Origin: Elusimicrobiota bacterium | GTDB lineage: Bacteria; CG03; SLGR01; PWQF01 | Reading direction: 5' to 3' | Assembly (NCBI GenBank): GCA_003557485.1 | Contig: PWOI01000205.1 | Location: forward strand, 1 to 7,502 | Length of the DNA: 7,502 nt | Program-made: the position numbers and the translations under genes | Shown here: piece after piece, positions 1 through 7,502 of the stretch | Layout of the letters: the number at the start of each line of letters is the position of its first letter | Numbering within the stretch: the stretch's first letter is position 1 | The notes under the pieces: generated by a model | Database searches by the model: none | What the model was told of the DNA's origin: nothing | The model's input: the letters and a program-made list of their open reading frames with translations, nothing else

Positions 1-90
1 AAAATGGAAGAAACAAAGTCTGAAAAAAATGAAAAATTTATGGAGAGAATTGAAGAGGTAAAATTATCGGAGGAATTGGTGGCTCAATGA
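1..90 (+). CDS. C-terminal 29 residues of a charged protein, probably a transposase (5' end outside window)
   Basis: The frame starting at base 1 is open to a TGA at 88-90. It encodes a lysine- and glutamate-rich tail that begins KMEETKSEKNEK and ends in LSEELVAQ. No domain can be recognised in so short a piece. The reasons to think it is real are its AT-rich, coding-like composition, its position 27 bases from the inferred element boundary (the usual place for a transposase stop codon), and the lack of any matching minus-strand homology. An ATG at 4-6 also lies in frame, but a start there would leave only 28 residues, so this is far more likely the end of a longer gene. The transposase assignment is inferred from the adjacent repeat, not from sequence similarity. 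Confidence 0.4.
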   Translation, partial: KMEETKSEKNEKFMERIEEVKLSEELVAQ

Positions 91-117
91 CTTTTACAGA
101 ACATTTGGGATTGACTC
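90..117. repeat. Putative terminal inverted repeat of the insertion sequence
   Basis: Read inward from the junction on the minus strand, the tip is GAGTCAATCCC and the inner part is CTGTAAAAGT. The length of 28 bases and the TGTAAAAGT inner block resemble IS256-type ends as I recall them. The repeat cannot be confirmed as inverted because the other end is outside the window. It contains the TAA (94-96) that now terminates the interrupted minus-strand gene. If this is right, the 8-9 host bases starting at 118 (TTTAAACTC) should be duplicated on the far side of the element. Confidence 0.45.
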
Positions 118-402
118 TTTAAACTCAAGACTGTTGACCGGTCCGTCTCCTTTAACAAAAAAACGGAAGGTGTAATTTGCCGGAAGAGTAAGATCGATAT
201 CGCGGGAGGCTACAACCCAATCCGAATCCGTAAGGTCGTAGTCAATTGCCAGGCAGGGGCCGTCCTTTCCTTCTCCGGTGCCTATTTCAATGCCCTTTCC
301 TATTGCAGTCCACCGGCCGGGATTCTCAAACCCCGACAGGCGCAAGGATGACAGAAAAAAGAAAACAAATATAAAAAGGCAGAGCGCGGAAGTTTTCTTC
401 AG
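94..402 (-). pseudogene. Truncated paralogue of the discoidin/glycosidase protein, N-terminal module only
   Basis: The 102-codon frame starts at CTG (402-400) and ends at TAA (96-94). Residues 1-19 (LKKTSALCLF onward) form a typical signal peptide: two lysines followed by a long hydrophobic, Phe-rich core. What follows matches residues 27-100 of the 1164-residue neighbour at roughly 40% identity by eye. Shared landmarks are FEN, a Trp, LxxDYxL, DWVVA, LPxN and KGxGPxN. The match ends at LEFK, where the neighbour continues with a further 1060 residues. Here seven unrelated residues (ESIPNVL) precede the stop, and these lie in the presumed insertion-sequence end. The frame is therefore most likely the 5' stub of a formerly full-length tandem copy. 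A TTG at 343-345 would also open the frame but would delete the signal peptide. If still translated, the product would be a small exported, probably non-functional fragment. Confidence 0.65.
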
Positions 403-3400
403 TAGATTATCTCCACTTCCCGGGGCATACTGTCGAAGTATATCTCGTTATCGGTAAATTCTTCATGGACGCTGCCGTCTATTCTCACTCTCCGTATTGT
501 CCTCTCCAGGTAAGGTGATTTCAGCATAAAGCCTTCCGGAGGCGCGGCATCGCCTTCAAAGCGCATCCTTACGGTCATCCCGGAAGAATCCATGGAGTAT
601 CCTATTGTTCCGTAGTGTGTAGGAAAATTGCTTATGCTTATCTCTTCGGAAAGCCAGTCTTCGTCAATGCCCATACCCAGCAGAAGCATATTGTCTTCCT
701 CATAAACAAACATATTACGGGTAGTGTTGACAAGGCCCGCGCCTATCCAAGAATGGGGCATATCACCCACATAAGCGGGAGTGCGGTAGTCGGGATGTAC
801 AATCTCGCCCCAGTGGTTCCACTCAGGCGGCCTCTGGTCTCCTATTAGGTAATAGTAGGAATTAAGAGCTTTCTCCTTTTCGCCCAGAAAGAGAAACGGG
901 CTTATATTCCTGATTTCATAAGGAGTATAACTGGTAGGCGGGCCGTCCGGGAACCTGGGTTTCATTGTATAGTTGTAGTAGCGTTCAAAAGTATACCTGA
1001 AGGACTCCTGGTCCAGGTAAGTGTACTCGTAGGTGGGAAAAACCGAAATTGTCGTTGAAGTGGGGTCAAAATCTGCAAGTGCTATGGAAGCAGGAATATA
1101 CCTTATGTTATGCTTCTCCTGAACCATCTTTATATTCCTTAAAAGATTGCTCCGCAGCCCCTCTTCCTCCTCTTTCATCCAGGGTATAAGGTGCTGCTTC
1201 CCTACAACTTCGGCAAGAAGCTGTCCGTCCTTCCATCCTTTGAGAACCCAGAATATATCCCAGAGGCTCTGCTGGGGATTGCCTATGTAGCCTTCGTGGC
1301 TTTCGGATATGGGAAGCAGTCCGTACTCGGGCGTCCCCTCATAGCGGGAGTGAAGTTTTTGCCTTCTAAGCATCTCGGAAAATTCCAGGGACCTGCGAAC
1401 CGCCGGAAAAGTTTGGCGGGCAAATTCCCTGTCACCTGTGAAATTATAGTAGTCAGCAACTGTGAATACATAAGCACCCTGTCCGTCCCACTGGTTCCAG
1501 TCCTGGCCGAAATGGGCCGGCTGTCTGGTTCTGGCGTTAAGTATATGGGGCACCCTGCCGTCGGATTCAACAGCTTCGCTTATCCACAGAGCGTAGCGCC
1601 TGGAATATTCGCCCAGGTTAGCCCTCAAGAGAGCTGCTGCCATTACCGAGCTGTCCCTGATCCATGAATGTTCATAGGCCCTGGAACCCGGCTGAAGGGC
1701 GTCGCCGTCCTTGTTTATAAGTATATACGCCAGGTTTGAGCGCATAGAATCAAATATTTTCGGGTTTGGTATATTAACCTCTATCCTGTTAAGTTTTTCC
1801 TTCCAGTCGGCCCTTACCTCTTCTAGCGTTTCCATAACCAATGATTCGGTGAAGCGTCCAGCCCTTGCCGGGTCATGATTCAGCGGCAGAACAAAAAGAA
1901 GCTGCTTAGTTTCCCCCGGAGCCAGGCTGTAATCATACGAAAGAGCCGCAGAGGCTCTTGCTGCGGAATCCCTGCGGACCGAAGAAGCCGAAGGCAGCGC
2001 TCCCTTATAAAGCAGTTCTACAACATCCCCCTCGCCGTAACCCATTGCCCCGAAACCATCGGGTCTCTGCAGGGAAATAACGCCCCCGTTATCGTTAACT
2101 TTTATCACCTGGTTTCTTGATGACGGAACAATACTTTCCACCTGGGCAAGTCCGCCATGCTGCCAGGGCGGATTAACAAGAAACGGCCTTATTGAAATAA
2201 ATACTTTTCCTTCTTTTGTCTCTCCGCTTTTATTTTCAAGAGTGTAAATAAGACCTGTAAAGTCAATATTGTTTCTCTTGAACCCGAACCCTTTCTGCAA
2301 GAACTCAATCCCTTCGTATATCCATTTTACCTGCGTTATGGGCAGGTAGTTCTCTTCCAGGGAAAGCTCTATATCAACATCATTGTAGGATATCAGTCTC
2401 CCCCCGGTAAAAAGATAAGGCATAAGGGAAAAACTGCGGGTAAAAGCGCTCAACTGTCCGGTTTCGGTAAGGAGGCTTACATTAAAAGCTCCTTCCGTAC
2501 CTATTATATTCCAGTACTGCTGCATATGGCTGAGCCACATCGGGAAAAAGCCCCGGGGATACATATCTGCAAGCATTCTGTAATATTCCATATCAGATTC
2601 CTGCATTTTCCTGCTGAGCTCTTTTCTTAATGCCTCTTCATCTCGTGCAACCATTATTGCATCCACAACGCCTCCGCGGGGAGCAGTTTCTTTGAGGTCT
2701 ACAGAAAAAGTGTTGAATTCACCGAATTTTATACCTTCTTTTACGGTTAATCTCACTGGCTGCCTGTCATCAGGCGAAATACCGGTAATTTTTACTCCGT
2801 TGACAGATATGTCATATAAGTCTCCCCGGTCGCTGAGCCAGAGAAGAGTGTCGTATCCTTGCCAATGTTCAGGAACAAAAATGCTTCTTTCCGGGTTTTC
2901 AGAAGTATTCCAGTTTATCTTAAGGACCATATCAGGATCGGGCATCCCTACTCCGAAAGGTTCATCTCCGGTCTTGAATACCGTATTAAGTATAGAGTAG
3001 CCCCATCCGGTACCGCGCTGCCTTCCGTAGATTCTCAGGTAGCGCCTTGAAACCATTTCAAAATCAATGTCATCGGTTCCGCCCAGCCCGTATCTTTCGG
3101 TAAAAACGGTCTCCCATTCTCTGCCGTCATCTGAAACCTGTATATCGTAAACCCTTCCGTAAGCCATTTCCCAGTATATTATCAGACCGACAATTTCTAT
3201 TTCGCGTCCGAAATCAAATTTTATCCACTGCGGATCGGAAAAATCACTTGCCCACCTGGTTCCAAAATTTCCGTCAACTGCATTCTGCGGCTCCAGATGC
3301 GGAAGTTCTATAGAACTTGCGGTAGCCGTAACCCTGAAAGGAGCAGAGCCTGCCCGCGTCCTTTCCCTTCCTTCAAGAGGCGTGTATGCCAGCCGGTCAA

Positions 3401-3893
3401 TACATATCGTACCGCTTCCTCCCGATCCTTTCACAATGGCAATTTCCATGCTTTCAATATGAGTCAGGTCGGCACCCGGCTCAGGGCCCCAGGCAAACTC
3501 TATCCGGTTTTTCTCTATCTCATATCTTGTCCACTCCTGCGGGGGGCTCAGATCAGGCAGTTTTTTCCAGAAAACATTACCGTCTCTGTCCAGAAATTTT
3601 ATCTCTACAGTATTAGACGGCCCCTCTCCCTTAAGATAAAAACTTATTTTAAAGTTGTCGGGAAGTTTTTTTCCTCCAAAGTTTTTTCCTGCAACGACCC
3701 AATCCTTTCCATCCCCTAGCCGGTAATCAAGACAGAGGGCGCGGCCTTCATACCCCCGGGCACTCCGGAGATTGACTCCCTCTGAGATAGGCTCCCAGGC
3801 GGAAATATTTTCAAAATTATCAATTATGTTTTCCGCTGAGGCGAAAACCGGAACAAGTATCATTGCAGTTAAAATTAAAACTAATTTTTTCAT
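399..3893 (-). CDS. Secreted discoidin-domain protein with six-hairpin glycosidase-like catalytic region
   Basis: The protein has 1164 residues and begins with a signal peptide (1-20, MKKLVLILTA... ending ASA). Residues 24-170 form a galactose-binding-like beta-sandwich resembling CBM11/CIA30-type modules, closing with SGTICIDRLAY. Residues 184-308 are an F5/8 type C (discoidin, CBM32-like) domain, with NAVDGNFGTRWAS, QWIKFDFG and RRYLRIYG. Residues 320-415 are another beta-rich segment. Residues 440-700 form a large beta region with YPRGFF, YWNIIG and RPFLVNPPWQ, which I associate with large discoidin-containing glycosidase-like proteins. Residues 710-1085 form an (alpha/alpha)6 region. EHSWIRDSS (741-749) recalls the Arg-Asp pair that binds sugar in subsite -1 of GH15 glucoamylases. 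DWNQWDGQGAY (798-808), EWNHWGE (1024-1030) and DMPHSWIGAG (1044-1053) are further active-site candidates. A beta domain closes the protein. The likely role is binding and cleaving or processing a polysaccharide outside the cytoplasm. Family, substrate and catalytic acids are not determined. ATG follows a strong ribosome binding site. There is no obvious C-terminal sorting domain, unlike the long protein at the head of the operon. Confidence 0.8.
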   Translation of the reverse strand: MKKLVLILTAMILVPVFASAENIIDNFENISAWEPISEGVNLRSARGYEGRALCLDYRLGDGKDWVVAGKNFGGKKLPDNFKISFYLKGEGPSNTVEIKFLDRDGNVFWKKLPDLSPPQEWTRYEIEKNRIEFAWGPEPGADLTHIESMEIAIVKGSGGSGTICIDRLAYTPLEGRERTRAGSAPFRVTATASSIELPHLEPQNAVDGNFGTRWASDFSDPQWIKFDFGREIEIVGLIIYWEMAYGRVYDIQVSDDGREWETVFTERYGLGGTDDIDFEMVSRRYLRIYGRQRGTGWGYSILNTVFKTGDEPFGVGMPDPDMVLKINWNTSENPERSIFVPEHWQGYDTLLWLSDRGDLYDISVNGVKITGISPDDRQPVRLTVKEGIKFGEFNTFSVDLKETAPRGGVVDAIMVARDEEALRKELSRKMQESDMEYYRMLADMYPRGFFPMWLSHMQQYWNIIGTEGAFNVSLLTETGQLSAFTRSFSLMPYLFTGGRLISYNDVDIELSLEENYLPITQVKWIYEGIEFLQKGFGFKRNNIDFTGLIYTLENKSGETKEGKVFISIRPFLVNPPWQHGGLAQVESIVPSSRNQVIKVNDNGGVISLQRPDGFGAMGYGEGDVVELLYKGALPSASSVRRDSAARASAALSYDYSLAPGETKQLLFVLPLNHDPARAGRFTESLVMETLEEVRADWKEKLNRIEVNIPNPKIFDSMRSNLAYILINKDGDALQPGSRAYEHSWIRDSSVMAAALLRANLGEYSRRYALWISEAVESDGRVPHILNARTRQPAHFGQDWNQWDGQGAYVFTVADYYNFTGDREFARQTFPAVRRSLEFSEMLRRQKLHSRYEGTPEYGLLPISESHEGYIGNPQQSLWDIFWVLKGWKDGQLLAEVVGKQHLIPWMKEEEEGLRSNLLRNIKMVQEKHNIRYIPASIALADFDPTSTTISVFPTYEYTYLDQESFRYTFERYYNYTMKPRFPDGPPTSYTPYEIRNISPFLFLGEKEKALNSYYYLIGDQRPPEWNHWGEIVHPDYRTPAYVGDMPHSWIGAGLVNTTRNMFVYEEDNMLLLGMGIDEDWLSEEISISNFPTHYGTIGYSMDSSGMTVRMRFEGDAAPPEGFMLKSPYLERTIRRVRIDGSVHEEFTDNEIYFDSMPREVEIIY
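400..414 (-). promoter_or_regulatory. Ribosome binding site and CTG start of the truncated paralogue
   Basis: On the minus strand GGAG (414-411) is followed by eight bases and CTG (402-400). The CTG shares two bases with the TGA stop of the upstream gene, giving CTGA, the same arrangement as the common ATGA coupling overlap. No ATG, GTG or TTG in this frame lies near the signal-peptide start, so the choice of CTG rests on spacing and on the position of the KK-hydrophobic leader. It may be a rare genuine CTG start, or an ATG mutated after the gene became useless. Confidence 0.5.
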
Positions 3894-3901
3894 TTACCTT
3901 T

Positions 3902-3907
3902 CTCCTT
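3902..3907 (-). promoter_or_regulatory. Strong Shine-Dalgarno for the 1164-residue protein
   Basis: AAGGAG on the minus strand is separated by eight bases from the ATG at 3893-3891. It lies in the 53-base gap after the PorV-like gene, the only noncoding DNA inside the operon. No convincing terminator hairpin is visible in that gap, so read-through from upstream is expected. The strong site contrasts with the weak one of the PorV-like gene and sets this start securely. Confidence 0.75.
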
Positions 3908-3946
3908 TATTATATGCATAATGAAAACTAAACAATTCCTTAAAAG

Positions 3947-4933
3947 TTACCTAAAAAAGTTTGCTGAGAGGGATACCCTGTGATGTCCCCAGTGATCCGA
4001 AAGAGGTGTGAACGGAAGAACTGCTGCATAGTCCAGCTGCATGGAAATATTCTCCATTGCCTTCATTCCGTAGCTGGCTCCGAAAGCGACTTCATCGCTG
4101 CTTAATCCGGTCCTTATACCGATACTGGGATGCTTCAGCCAGGCTTCAACTCCAGCAGAGAGTTTAATCTTATCGGAAGGGTCCCCCCAAACCTGATCGC
4201 GATATATAAAAGATAGTTCAGGCGTAATTGATTTAAAATAGCCGGCGTCGTAAATCCGGTACCCTGCGCCTAAGGAAGCTGAGAAAGGAACGCTGTCTTT
4301 TTCTTTCAAACCTATATCGGCCGGAATAATGTTTCTGAAACTGAGACCCAGAGGAAGCTGCTCAACAGGTTCAACAATAAATCCCAGGTCGGCAGTAAAG
4401 GCGCCGGCACCGTCCTTTTTAGTTATAGGATCATTAAGTATCGGATCGCCGGAATCCATAGGTTCCCAGTCATAACCGTGATACAGATATTTAAGGTTTA
4501 CTCCGGCAGCCACGCGCACCTTTCCGAAATCCGGAATCCAGTCGTTAAGTTCCCTGGCAGCGCTTAGGCTCAGAGCATGTTCACAGTATATTCCGTCTCC
4601 TCTGAAAACAGAGTATGAGATTCCGAAATGCCCTATCTCCGGGTAGGGATATACAAGAGAGGCAAGCATGTAATCAAGGGAAACTCCGGGAAGGCCTGAA
4701 AAAGGACTGTAATATTCAAAAAGCGCCGAAGGCTCTTTTATATTGGCCAGCCCGGCAGGGTTCCATCCGGCTGCGGATGCATCGTCAATGGTAGCTATAA
4801 CGGCGCCTGCCTTGCCCGCAGCGCGTGAACCGAAACTTTCTACAAGGAAAGCCGCATATATCTTTCCACAAGTGAGCAGCAGAACAAAGGAAAGTGCCGC
4901 TGCCAGTCTTATTTTACTTTTTACTGAGATCAT
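3947..4933 (-). CDS. PorV/PorQ-like outer-membrane beta-barrel protein
   Basis: The protein has 328 residues. Residues 1-27 are a signal peptide with a hydrophobic core AALSFVLLL and probable cleavage after KIYA. The mature N-terminus carries GSRAAGKAGAVIATIDDASA followed by GWNPAGLA (residues 35-63). This Gly/Ala-rich stretch with a DD and an NPAGL motif is characteristic of PorV/PorQ and UPF0164-type barrels, distantly FadL-like. The rest alternates short polar turns and amphipathic strands (for example FGISYSVF, VRVAAGVNLKYLY, FSASLGAGYRIY), and the last residues SLSANFFR fit an aromatic-rich outer-membrane barrel terminus. About 330 residues is normal for the family. In type IX secretion PorV works in the outer membrane with cargo that carries a sorting C-terminal domain. 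The immediately upstream gene encodes such a domain and overlaps this one by 4 bases (ATGA), so a partnership is plausible but inferred. The ribosome binding site is weak (GGTGG just upstream of ATG), consistent with translational coupling. FadL-like transport of hydrophobic substrates is the alternative role. Confidence 0.75.
   Translation of the reverse strand: MISVKSKIRLAAALSFVLLLTCGKIYAAFLVESFGSRAAGKAGAVIATIDDASAAGWNPAGLANIKEPSALFEYYSPFSGLPGVSLDYMLASLVYPYPEIGHFGISYSVFRGDGIYCEHALSLSAARELNDWIPDFGKVRVAAGVNLKYLYHGYDWEPMDSGDPILNDPITKKDGAGAFTADLGFIVEPVEQLPLGLSFRNIIPADIGLKEKDSVPFSASLGAGYRIYDAGYFKSITPELSFIYRDQVWGDPSDKIKLSAGVEAWLKHPSIGIRTGLSSDEVAFGASYGMKAMENISMQLDYAAVLPFTPLSDHWGHHRVSLSANFFR
4930..4933 (-). 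other. ATGA stop/start overlap coupling the surface protein and the barrel gene
   Basis: The TGA stop of the long FN3 protein (4932-4930) overlaps the ATG of the PorV-like gene (4933-4931). Such 4-base overlaps usually indicate co-transcription and re-initiating ribosomes. Only a weak GGTGG precedes the ATG, which fits dependence on upstream translation. Confidence 0.85.
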
Positions 4934-7502
4934 TTCGCCACCGCTATAGTTCCGTAGTGAATCTTACCGTCTTTTGTATGCACCATATAAATATATAATC
5001 CGGACTCAAGCGTGCCCCTTACATCTTCATCAGGTTTCCAGGTTATATAGAGGGGGGACGGTTCAGTCAATTTTGTGATTTCCCTTCCCCGCATATCGGT
5101 TATTGTTACTTTTTCGGCTTCCGAGCCGAACCTGATCTGGCGGTTAGAAGGAGTAATAAATCTCGTGTTGGGTTTCCAGCCGGCAACGAGCCCTGTTTGG
5201 GCAAAAATTGTAATACCGGCGTTGGGGTCGTATTTGTTATCGCCGTTAAGAGAAAAAATACTGTATTCGTACCTGGTACCGTGTGCCAGGCCGGTATCTT
5301 TATAAGAAACAATAACTGCTGAGGAAGCTGACCCCGGACCGGACAGAACAGCCGCCTGAGATGATGGGGACCATTTATTTTCAAGTAACTTGCCGTCCCT
5401 TTCTATCCGGTACTTGGCTCCCTGTTTTCCGCGCCATTTGATTGTAATTTCAGTCACCCCGGAAACCGGTTTTAACTTCGGGTCTTTCTCATCATACTGT
5501 GGACTGGCTTCATAGGTATAAACGGAAACAGAACCGGAGGGAGCAGATTCAAGGGCCCCGTCATAAGCCCTCACAACCCTTTTGTACTTAGTATTTGCAG
5601 AAAGCCCTGTCTCGTCCCAGTAGGTAGTCCCTGCAGGCAGCGGATCACTGGCACTGCTATCGGGAGCGGTCCCATAAAAAAGCCTGTATCCGCTTGCCCC
5701 CTGTATTTCATTCCAGCTCCACCGGATAGAATGTGTGGAGAGTACAACCCCGGTAAAATTGTCAGGCGGGCCTATTGCAGTCTTTGTAGAGACCGTGTTG
5801 GAATAAGCAGTTTTTATTCCGTCATTGTTATACGCCCAGACCCTGAACCAGTAAGTTGTCAGAGGAGTAAGCTCTTCGATAGTGAAGGTTGTGGTGTCGA
5901 GGGCAGTTCCCCATGCCGCGGCCGTTGTATGACCTATTGTAAAATTCTCATCCTCTGCATAAGAAATGCCGTAGCTGGTTAGGTCCGGGTTGGAACTTTC
6001 ATTCCATAGAAGCGTAACAGAACTGGAATAAACAGAATCCACTTCAAGGGCCGAGGGGACGGCTGCAAGAGTGTAAAGGGAAACTACAGCGGAGGTTCCA
6101 AGAATAACAAAGTCATCGTATGCTACAACATATCGGGAATAGGAAGTGTTGGTATCCAGTCCGTCTTCAAGCCATTCTCTTGTCTCCGAATCAAAACTCT
6201 CCAGCTCCGCGTCATTAGATGCATTAAAAATTTTGTATGAATCCGCGTCCGGCGTTTCCGACCAATTCCAGTTCAGAGATTGCGTTGAGACTGGCGTTGC
6301 GAAAAGAATAACCGGAGGAGCAGTTAAGTGTAATGATGCGTCATCCCACCTGAACCCTCCGTCCCCCGCCGCTTCGGCTTCTTCTGTTTCATATTCCATC
6401 CCGACACGCACATAGGAAGTGTTTTCCGGAGAAGCACCCTGAATGCTGTATTTAGTCCATGTGTCGGTACTTCCTGTCAGGCCGGTTTTATCCAGTGTAT
6501 ATTCTTCCAGCAACTCATATGATTCATCAAGAAACCGGAGAAAAACGGTAATGTCATAATGGTCAAAATCCCAGTTTTCGGTAGGGTTGCCCCAGATTGA
6601 GAAATCATAGATAAGCCCTTCATCGGAACTTGCATAGTCCTGGTATATATAACCTTCTTTTTCCCAGCCCTGCATTAAAGCTACCCAGGTTCCGGTCCGG
6701 GGATCCATCCAGCCCGCATCATCCCGAACTATGCCGCCGTCACGTTCCCATCCATCTATAATCTCATTGCCGTCTCCATATTCAAAAGATGTATTTTCAA
6801 GAAATTCCTCTATGATGATATACGGTGTTTTGGTATCGGCATTTAAAGTCAGCGGCGTGGCGTACCCCTCCTCATCCATACCTAATATTGAATAGAAATA
6901 CTCGGTATAGAGTTCAATATCCGTATCACTCCATTGTAATTGGTCTGTGCTATGTACAAGTTCTACGCCGGCAGTATCGGTTGAGGAAAAAACAGATTCC
7001 GACCTGTATATATGGTACAGGTTCATTATGCCATCAGGCGAGCCGGCAGCCGGCCAGTAAAGATCTATTTTAAGTTCAGTTTCAGAAGCAACGGCAAGCA
7101 CGTTTTTAACATTAGAGCCAACATCGTTCAGCTTTAGGTCGTCAAGATATACCGTACCGCTTACATCAACATCTCCGGGCTGTAAAAAGAACAATATGTG
7201 GTTGATGCGTGAAATATCGCATAATTCCAAAGATGGATTAGTTAATTTGTCAGAATCCCATTCAAATGTCACTTCCTGCCAGAGGCCCGGTTGGGAAGCG
7301 GTAAGCTGCTGAATGTCACCGCTTTCAACTCCGTCAGCGTCCCTGAATTTCATAAGTATGGTTACTTCGCTATTTTCCGGGTAAACCCATATGGATATTG
7401 AACTGGATAGGCTTACGGAGAAATCGCTGACATTGTTGGAACCGTCATAAAGATTACCTGCTAAAAAGTAAGAAAACTCATCTCCCGCGGCTTTTTCATA
7501 AT
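4930..7502 (-). CDS. Large FN3 / carbohydrate-binding-like surface protein with sorting-type C-terminal domain (5' end outside window)
   Basis: The reading frame is open to the window edge, so its 856 visible residues are the C-terminal part. An ATG at 7351-7353 is internal, because beta-sandwich sequence (YEKAAGDEFSYFLAGNLYDG) continues upstream of it. Visible order: residues 1-128, a galactose-binding-like module ending SGTVYLDDLKL; 130-226, an FN3-like repeat; 228-393, a CBM4/9-like jelly roll (ENTSFEYGDG, then GFRWDDASLHL); 395-478, 481-574 and 577-662, three FN3-type repeats; 668-768, a divergent FN3-like unit; 780-856, a C-terminal domain with VTITDMRGREITKL, TWKPDEDVRG and SGLYIYMVHTKDGK. 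This last domain resembles type IX secretion sorting domains and FlgD-like Ig folds, which are found at the ends of exported proteins. No enzyme domain is visible, but one may lie upstream. The likely role is a cell-surface or secreted glycan-binding or adhesive protein. It is translationally coupled to the PorV-like barrel. A Thr/Ser-rich, acidic composition fits an extracellular location. Confidence 0.75.
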   Translation of the reverse strand, partial: YEKAAGDEFSYFLAGNLYDGSNNVSDFSVSLSSSISIWVYPENSEVTILMKFRDADGVESGDIQQLTASQPGLWQEVTFEWDSDKLTNPSLELCDISRINHILFFLQPGDVDVSGTVYLDDLKLNDVGSNVKNVLAVASETELKIDLYWPAAGSPDGIMNLYHIYRSESVFSSTDTAGVELVHSTDQLQWSDTDIELYTEYFYSILGMDEEGYATPLTLNADTKTPYIIIEEFLENTSFEYGDGNEIIDGWERDGGIVRDDAGWMDPRTGTWVALMQGWEKEGYIYQDYASSDEGLIYDFSIWGNPTENWDFDHYDITVFLRFLDESYELLEEYTLDKTGLTGSTDTWTKYSIQGASPENTSYVRVGMEYETEEAEAAGDGGFRWDDASLHLTAPPVILFATPVSTQSLNWNWSETPDADSYKIFNASNDAELESFDSETREWLEDGLDTNTSYSRYVVAYDDFVILGTSAVVSLYTLAAVPSALEVDSVYSSSVTLLWNESSNPDLTSYGISYAEDENFTIGHTTAAAWGTALDTTTFTIEELTPLTTYWFRVWAYNNDGIKTAYSNTVSTKTAIGPPDNFTGVVLSTHSIRWSWNEIQGASGYRLFYGTAPDSSASDPLPAGTTYWDETGLSANTKYKRVVRAYDGALESAPSGSVSVYTYEASPQYDEKDPKLKPVSGVTEITIKWRGKQGAKYRIERDGKLLENKWSPSSQAAVLSGPGSASSAVIVSYKDTGLAHGTRYEYSIFSLNGDNKYDPNAGITIFAQTGLVAGWKPNTRFITPSNRQIRFGSEAEKVTITDMRGREITKLTEPSPLYITWKPDEDVRGTLESGLYIYMVHTKDGKIHYGTIAVAK

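Follow-up and report, generated by a model that had tools for sequence, protein, structure and literature searches.

PorV/PorQ-family barrels paired with sorting-type cargo proteins in an Elusimicrobiota genome suggest a type IX-like route with dedicated carriers and anchors

Does a barrel gene whose start overlaps the stop of a gene for a long, sorting-type surface protein represent a type IX-like export and anchoring route in a bacterium outside the Bacteroidota? This question is raised by a stretch of 7,502 nucleotides (the window hereafter; contig PWOI01000205.1, positions 1 to 7,502, assembly GCA_003557485.1) from an Elusimicrobiota bacterium, in which a preliminary description made from the letters alone had proposed a coupled barrel-cargo pair of this kind. 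Comparison of sequences supports that proposal through the presence of a SprA homologue, of paralogous pairs in the same genome and of conserved adjacency in relatives. The interpretation preferred here, given a probability of roughly two in three, is that export would depend on SprA and that each cargo would have its own PorV/Q-type carrier, retained afterwards as a non-covalent anchor. The features concerned are the following.

3947 to 4933, minus strand: predicted PorV/PorQ-family barrel open reading frame, 328 residues
4930 to 4933, minus strand: ATGA overlap of cargo stop and barrel start, read from the DNA
4930 to 7500, minus strand: cargo (passenger) open reading frame, 856 residues visible, 5' end open at the contig end
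4933 to 5184, minus strand: putative sorting-type C-terminal domain, the last ~84 residues of the cargo, modelled as a seven-strand beta-sandwich

Both open reading frames and their ATGA overlap were found where they had been described, in the list of frames as well as in the DNA read directly. The minus-strand DNA at the junction is gtggcgaaATGAtctcagta, so that the TGA of the cargo and the ATG of the barrel overlap, with four bases shared in total and the cargo stop falling inside the barrel start codon (gcgaaATGAtctc), an arrangement suggesting translational coupling of the two genes. The cargo frame runs off the contig end and its N-terminus is lost; fibronectin type III (fn3) domains were matched in the frame at 4930-7500 (Pfam model, E 7e-19) and the N-terminal region of the visible part may resemble a carbohydrate-binding module. 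The frame ends in ...KVTITDMRGREITKL...ESGLYIYMVHTKDGKIHYGTIAVAK, and the two motifs singled out earlier, MRGREITKL and SGLYIYMV, both lie within its last ~70 residues.

The barrel opens with a signal peptide-like stretch and is matched nearly end to end by the PorV/PorQ family model NF033709 (E 6.9e-15, or about 7e-15; profile 5-326 of 326). With the PorV equivalog model NF033710 it scores 16.6 bits, which does not reach the orthologue cut-off of 250, and no NCBIfam match to the PorP/SprF family was obtained for it. The AlphaFold2 (AF2) model of the barrel displays 14 strands and an N-terminal hatch (predicted local distance difference test, pLDDT, 86; predicted TM-score, pTM, 0.81), and its structural matches are headed by PorV 8gl6_F and 6h3i_F (Z 29.8, root-mean-square deviation 2.7 and 268 residues aligned for the latter), with FadL reaching an equal Z. 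The best TM-scores belong to PorV taken from the SprA complex, with a TMq of 0.66-0.67 compared to 0.51-0.61 for FadL, and its root-mean-square deviation is low. The PorV/PorQ-like character attributed to the barrel at the outset is therefore upheld by the full-length NF033709 match and the 14-strand model, though its score lies under the family cut-off, and by sequence the barrel would be a divergent PorV/PorQ-family relative, not PorV proper. An autotransporter-like route was ruled out, the barrel model having no autotransporter features.

FadL-type channels tie with PorV in VIA Z (29.8 and 29.9 respectively), so that the fold alone cannot tell one from the other. This equality lends some support to another explanation, in which the barrel would be a FadL-type transporter importing hydrophobic molecules that the cargo releases or binds, the locus a nutrient-uptake operon and the tail an ordinary FlgD-type immunoglobulin-like (Ig-like) domain; the glycosidase-like gene lying directly downstream of the barrel (window 399-3893) is in line with it. 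Nevertheless, the barrel scores 14.1 bits with the FadL/TodX Pfam model PF03349, below the gathering score of 29.7, whereas the PorV/PorQ model covers its full length. A barrel model matching FadL-type transporters without PorV's cargo-binding face had been named as evidence against the type IX proposal; as far as the model can tell, the fit to PorV is at least as good as that to FadL by TMq, with Z tied.

The tail of the cargo was modelled as a seven-strand, Ig-like sandwich reaching the last residue (AF2, pLDDT 88). The first VIA-align matches of this model are the C-terminal domains of PorZ (Z 8.7), NucA (7.9, from the translocon-bound structure) and mirolase (7.8), with the RgpB, PorU and RemA domains ranking just below. 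A Z near 8 is weak in itself; what is telling, on the modelled fold, is that the leading matches are so largely type IX domains. The window tail alone gives a weak match to TIGR04183 (E 9e-4, 19.1 bits), while the NCBIfam scan gave no match to the type B model TIGR04131. The sorting-type C-terminus that had been proposed is thus borne out by its best structural neighbours and this weak profile match, and the tail appears from its sequence to be a divergent variant, not a standard type A domain.

The genome, a draft of 2.07 Mb in 212 contigs (86.6% complete), contains at least 15 such pairs, that of the window included; gene numbers in it rest on profile searches and on retrieved stretches of sequence instead of a complete annotation. 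Profile search recovered about 24 barrel genes of the PorV/PorQ family, some paralogues exceeding the 90-bit cut-off, together with ~20 genes bearing a type IX-like tail, the TIGR04183 cut-off being passed at 12 places besides the window; the further sorting-domain proteins that had been suggested as a check are thus present in number. Four of the ~24 barrels are cut at a contig edge. A tail-bearing gene lies directly upstream on the same strand for 15 of the 20 judgeable ones (hypergeometric p ~5e-30, ~1900 genes assumed), with a 4-base stop/start overlap in 9 of these 15 pairs, whereas the barrels of C80, C115, C94 and C42 and the second barrel of C84 are not preceded by a tail gene. All 25 scanned tails of paired genes were matched by TIGR04183 at E<0.1, and the same tails were matched by the PorZ tail (13), CHU_C (21), FlgD_ig (12) and, weakly, TIGR04131 (5). 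The low scores of the window pair are therefore not attributed to chance, since all 25 tails match, the structural neighbours are type IX domains and 15 of 20 barrels are paired. The FlgD_ig matches (12/25) agree with the transporter explanation mentioned above. TIGR04183 matches inside long open reading frames at C130:4270 and C139:8366 were treated as chance.

Motif E, in the last strand of type A domains, carries a conserved and important lysine; lysine or arginine occupies this place in the tails of C17, C195, C84, C106, C157 and C164. High NF033709 barrel scores tend to go with such tails (15 own-genome pairs, one-sided p 0.009) and the tails lacking Lys/Arg, that of the window included, tend to precede low-scoring barrels, C37 being a clear exception. 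This association places the window pair in a branch where both partners would have left the Bacteroidota form. The preliminary description had called the route private, which holds in that each cargo has its own barrel, but not in that many pairs exist and probably share one SprA translocon.

Some barrels of this genome (G000) carry TPR-like C-terminal extensions, at C84:20919-22514, C37:7861-8982, C115:22330-23484, C150:3389-5020 and C94:21398-22714. The barrel at C84:20919-22514 additionally matches UPF0164, a family known from Treponema.

Tail and barrel distances are correlated across 36 pairs (r 0.88) and among 12 own-genome pairs (Mantel r 0.79, p 1e-4). In 9 own-genome pairs the passenger sequence was long enough for comparison; there the last 85 residues gave r 0.82, and successive passenger segments towards the upstream side gave 0.50, 0.25 and -0.11. 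Unrelated passengers are carried over one kind of tail, namely kelch, FG-GAP, Big_5, long fn3 arrays, CBM_X2, lamin-tail (LTD) and phospholipase D-like proteins, and the pair nearest to that of the window (C130:32937-35662) has a kelch passenger. This co-divergence is strong but indirect support for tail-barrel recognition. A chance Ig-like tail was ruled out by the pairing with barrels and by the co-divergence. The FadL-type explanation is likewise disfavoured by the diversity of the cargo bodies, from kelch to phospholipase D-like, which share no substrate, yet whose tails and barrels co-diverge, and by the presence of a SprA homologue; an uptake operon is accordingly regarded as quite improbable.

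Conservation of the adjacency had been proposed as a further check, and the pairing proved to be kept in the genus, the order and the phylum. Relatives of the window barrel occur in every genome of the same order and in most of the phylum, the gene preceding the barrel ends in a sorting tail in most judgeable relatives at these three levels, and the 4-base overlap recurs in many of their pairs. Relatives that have names carry the label Elusimicrobia and are metagenome-assembled genomes; the isolate names of some hint at an origin in soda-lake sediment. Among the matches listed, a barrel lies directly downstream of the tail in 38 of 78 cases in the phylum. In G016, which represents classical type IX genomes and has SprA and PorU above cut-off, this holds for 1 of 72 (Fisher p 2e-12, on the tails among those matches). 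G016 has 87 tail matches for 15 barrel matches, whereas the phylum has about one barrel per tail.

Other arrangements were observed around the pairs of relatives. A ~390-residue signal-peptide protein with a C-terminal SpoVG-like match (L116:4658-5851, also L114, L117, L123 and L232:2607-3746) sits between or behind cargo-barrel pairs in several of them. A second tail gene with its barrel stands behind the first pair at L116:5996-8169 and L123:6160-8695, the second pair of L116 consisting of a phospholipase D-like protein with a sorting tail followed by a PorQ-like barrel. Loci L156, L157, L167, L174, L181, L184, L186 and L191 come from genomes of Melioribacter, Rhodothermales, Kapabacteria and Ignavibacteria; there the barrel is preceded by a gene for a protein of ~1037-1330 residues that ends in a sorting tail and, judged by its size, may be PorU, the order PorU-PorV being that seen in G016.

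As to the machinery itself, the suggested search for SprA/Sov yielded a divergent translocon, a SprA homologue of 1729 residues at C42:12991-18180. A lack of other type IX components combined with unconserved adjacency, named beforehand as grounds for refutation, is therefore not what was found. It scores under the curated TIGR04189 cut-off, and homology was established by profile comparison: the alignment of 13 phylum members matches the SprA of G016 over ~1018 columns with an hhalign probability of 100%. The SprA-like protein had no match when searched by sequence against the PDB. Of the 16 phylum genomes searched, 15 contain the homologue, and the one without it is 63% complete. Near it, a PorV-family barrel is encoded at C42:8721-9908 (L054), with two LptF/LptG-like permease genes between. 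Retention of SprA in nearly the whole phylum bears on the idea of a barrel that would by itself take its cargo through the outer membrane, independently of SprA, as in two-partner secretion. One barrel per cargo and a gene overlap suggestive of coupled translation are what such a stand-alone exporter would have, but the model is a 14-strand hatch barrel resembling PorV and FadL, without POTRA or autotransporter features, and this possibility is considered very improbable.

Of the type IX parts to be sought, SprA/Sov and sorting-domain proteins were thus recovered, but no PorU catalytic domain was detected in the eight genomes of the order, which are drafts, so this absence is a soft one; matches of the PorU model there are confined to its C-terminal sorting domain. 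The Peptidase_C25 model gave no matches, and the controls were likewise silent. In another family of the phylum (G008, G009, G012, G014), C25-type peptidase matches were seen over ~354-737 of the PorU model.

These observations are consistent with the following sequence of events. The cargo would be exported, presumably by Sec, and its C-terminal domain would fold in the periplasm. The barrel encoded by the adjacent gene, seated in the lateral opening of the SprA-like translocon, would recognise this domain by its extracellular loops and then draw the cargo outward through SprA. Since no PorU-type sortase was found in the order, the tail would not be cut off and the barrel would stay bound as a non-covalent, one-to-one surface anchor, in the manner of PorQ-PorZ and SprF-SprB, with translational coupling supplying equal amounts of both partners. 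A broader formulation, in which this would constitute a sortase-free variant of type IX secretion whose private PorV/Q barrels export through a shared SprA and remain as permanent anchors, the tail-barrel module being used on about twenty passengers, is put forward tentatively, with the odds leaning slightly against it.

The dedicated barrel might instead act after export only, as an anchor, the cargo crossing through SprA with one shared PorV/Q-type carrier like ordinary type A cargo. In favour of such a division, the window tail is nearest in structure to the uncleaved domain of PorZ, which is held by PorQ while PorV is the general carrier (PMC10202324), and the unpaired barrels listed above could be general carriers. 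On the other hand, none of them stands out as a PorV orthologue, and the best-studied adjacent pairs, SprB-SprF and Fjoh_3952-3951, already require the neighbouring barrel for secretion (PMC12618676). A purely anchoring role is therefore deemed unlikely.

Several points weigh against SprA-dependent export by dedicated carriers. Besides the tie with FadL in Z, the window barrel stays below the curated NF033709 cut-off (55.4 vs 90 bits) and the window tail below that of TIGR04183 (19.1 vs 23 bits), and the motif-E position of this tail is occupied by a threonine (YGTIAVAK), not a lysine. Linkage on the DNA alone could hold tail and barrel together during passenger swaps, which makes the co-divergence indirect. 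GldM had no match in the genome, and GldL no convincing one in the phylum, nor in G016; at 86.6% completeness such absences are soft.

In the remainder of the window, the gene at 399-3893 (minus strand) lies 53 bases behind the barrel and encodes a 1164-residue protein that has a signal peptide and an F5/8 type C domain, matches six-hairpin glycosidases weakly and bears no sorting tail. The short open frame at 94-345 (minus strand) resembles the N-terminal domain of this protein, and a second, tandem protein of the same kind may begin there.

Reviews confine type IX secretion to the Bacteroidota and related FCB phyla, the genes being absent elsewhere (PMC11285876, PMC11205867), and in the Elusimicrobia literature two papers (PMC7031533, PMC8542988) name the system in their reference lists only. 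The presence of a SprA homologue in this phylum, together with sorting domains and numerous PorV/Q barrels, suggests that type IX secretion is older or wider than thought, or that it has spread. With ~15 co-diverging paralogous pairs per genome and unrelated passengers as an internal control, these genomes also offer a data set for the question of how tails and barrels are matched. If the anchor reading is true, tail and barrel would form a two-gene, sortase-free module for displaying unrelated proteins on the cell surface.

Among known systems, FadL/TodX channels share the 14-strand barrel and the N-terminal hatch, but the window barrel lies under their sequence cut-off, and no FadL/TodX protein is known to have a sorting-domain partner. 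Type A cargo served by PorV as a general shuttle resembles the present case in its seven-strand domain, PorV-family barrel and SprA-family translocon, where PorV loops bind the sorting domain inside SprA and pull it out (PMC10994853). However, in F. johnsoniae all type A cargo is handled by a single PorV (PMC12618676), whereas here the number of barrels comes close to that of cargoes and the window tail has no lysine in motif E. Closer in arrangement are the type B pairs SprB-SprF and Fjoh_3952-3951, with several pairs per genome, one downstream barrel gene per cargo and a 14-strand barrel of the FadL superfamily (PMC12618676, PMC9143113); in F. johnsoniae, type B cargo requires its directly downstream-encoded PorP/SprF barrel in stoichiometric amounts (PMC12618676), and PorP-like barrels anchor their cargo, which stays bound (PMC12618676, PMC9143113). 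They differ in that the window barrel is of PorV/PorQ and not PorP/SprF type, its tail of TIGR04183 and not TIGR04131 type, and the host outside the Bacteroidota. The static PorZ-PorQ and PorU-PorV couples of the Bacteroidota attachment complex, in which, in P. gingivalis, the PorZ and PorU tails escape removal and remain attached to PorQ and PorV, provide the likeness of an uncleaved, type A-like domain on a PorV/PorQ-family barrel (PMC10202324). The window tail matches the PorZ domain best in structure and, in G016, a PorU gene adjoins a PorV-family gene. Those couples, however, are single machine parts, whereas here ~15 or more cargoes are involved and no PorU catalytic domain was detected in the order. 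Taken together, the pairs of this genome combine a PorV/Q-type barrel, a type A-like tail, the downstream position of the barrel gene and the gene overlap, with no sortase found, for which the simplest reading would be a private carrier turned anchor.

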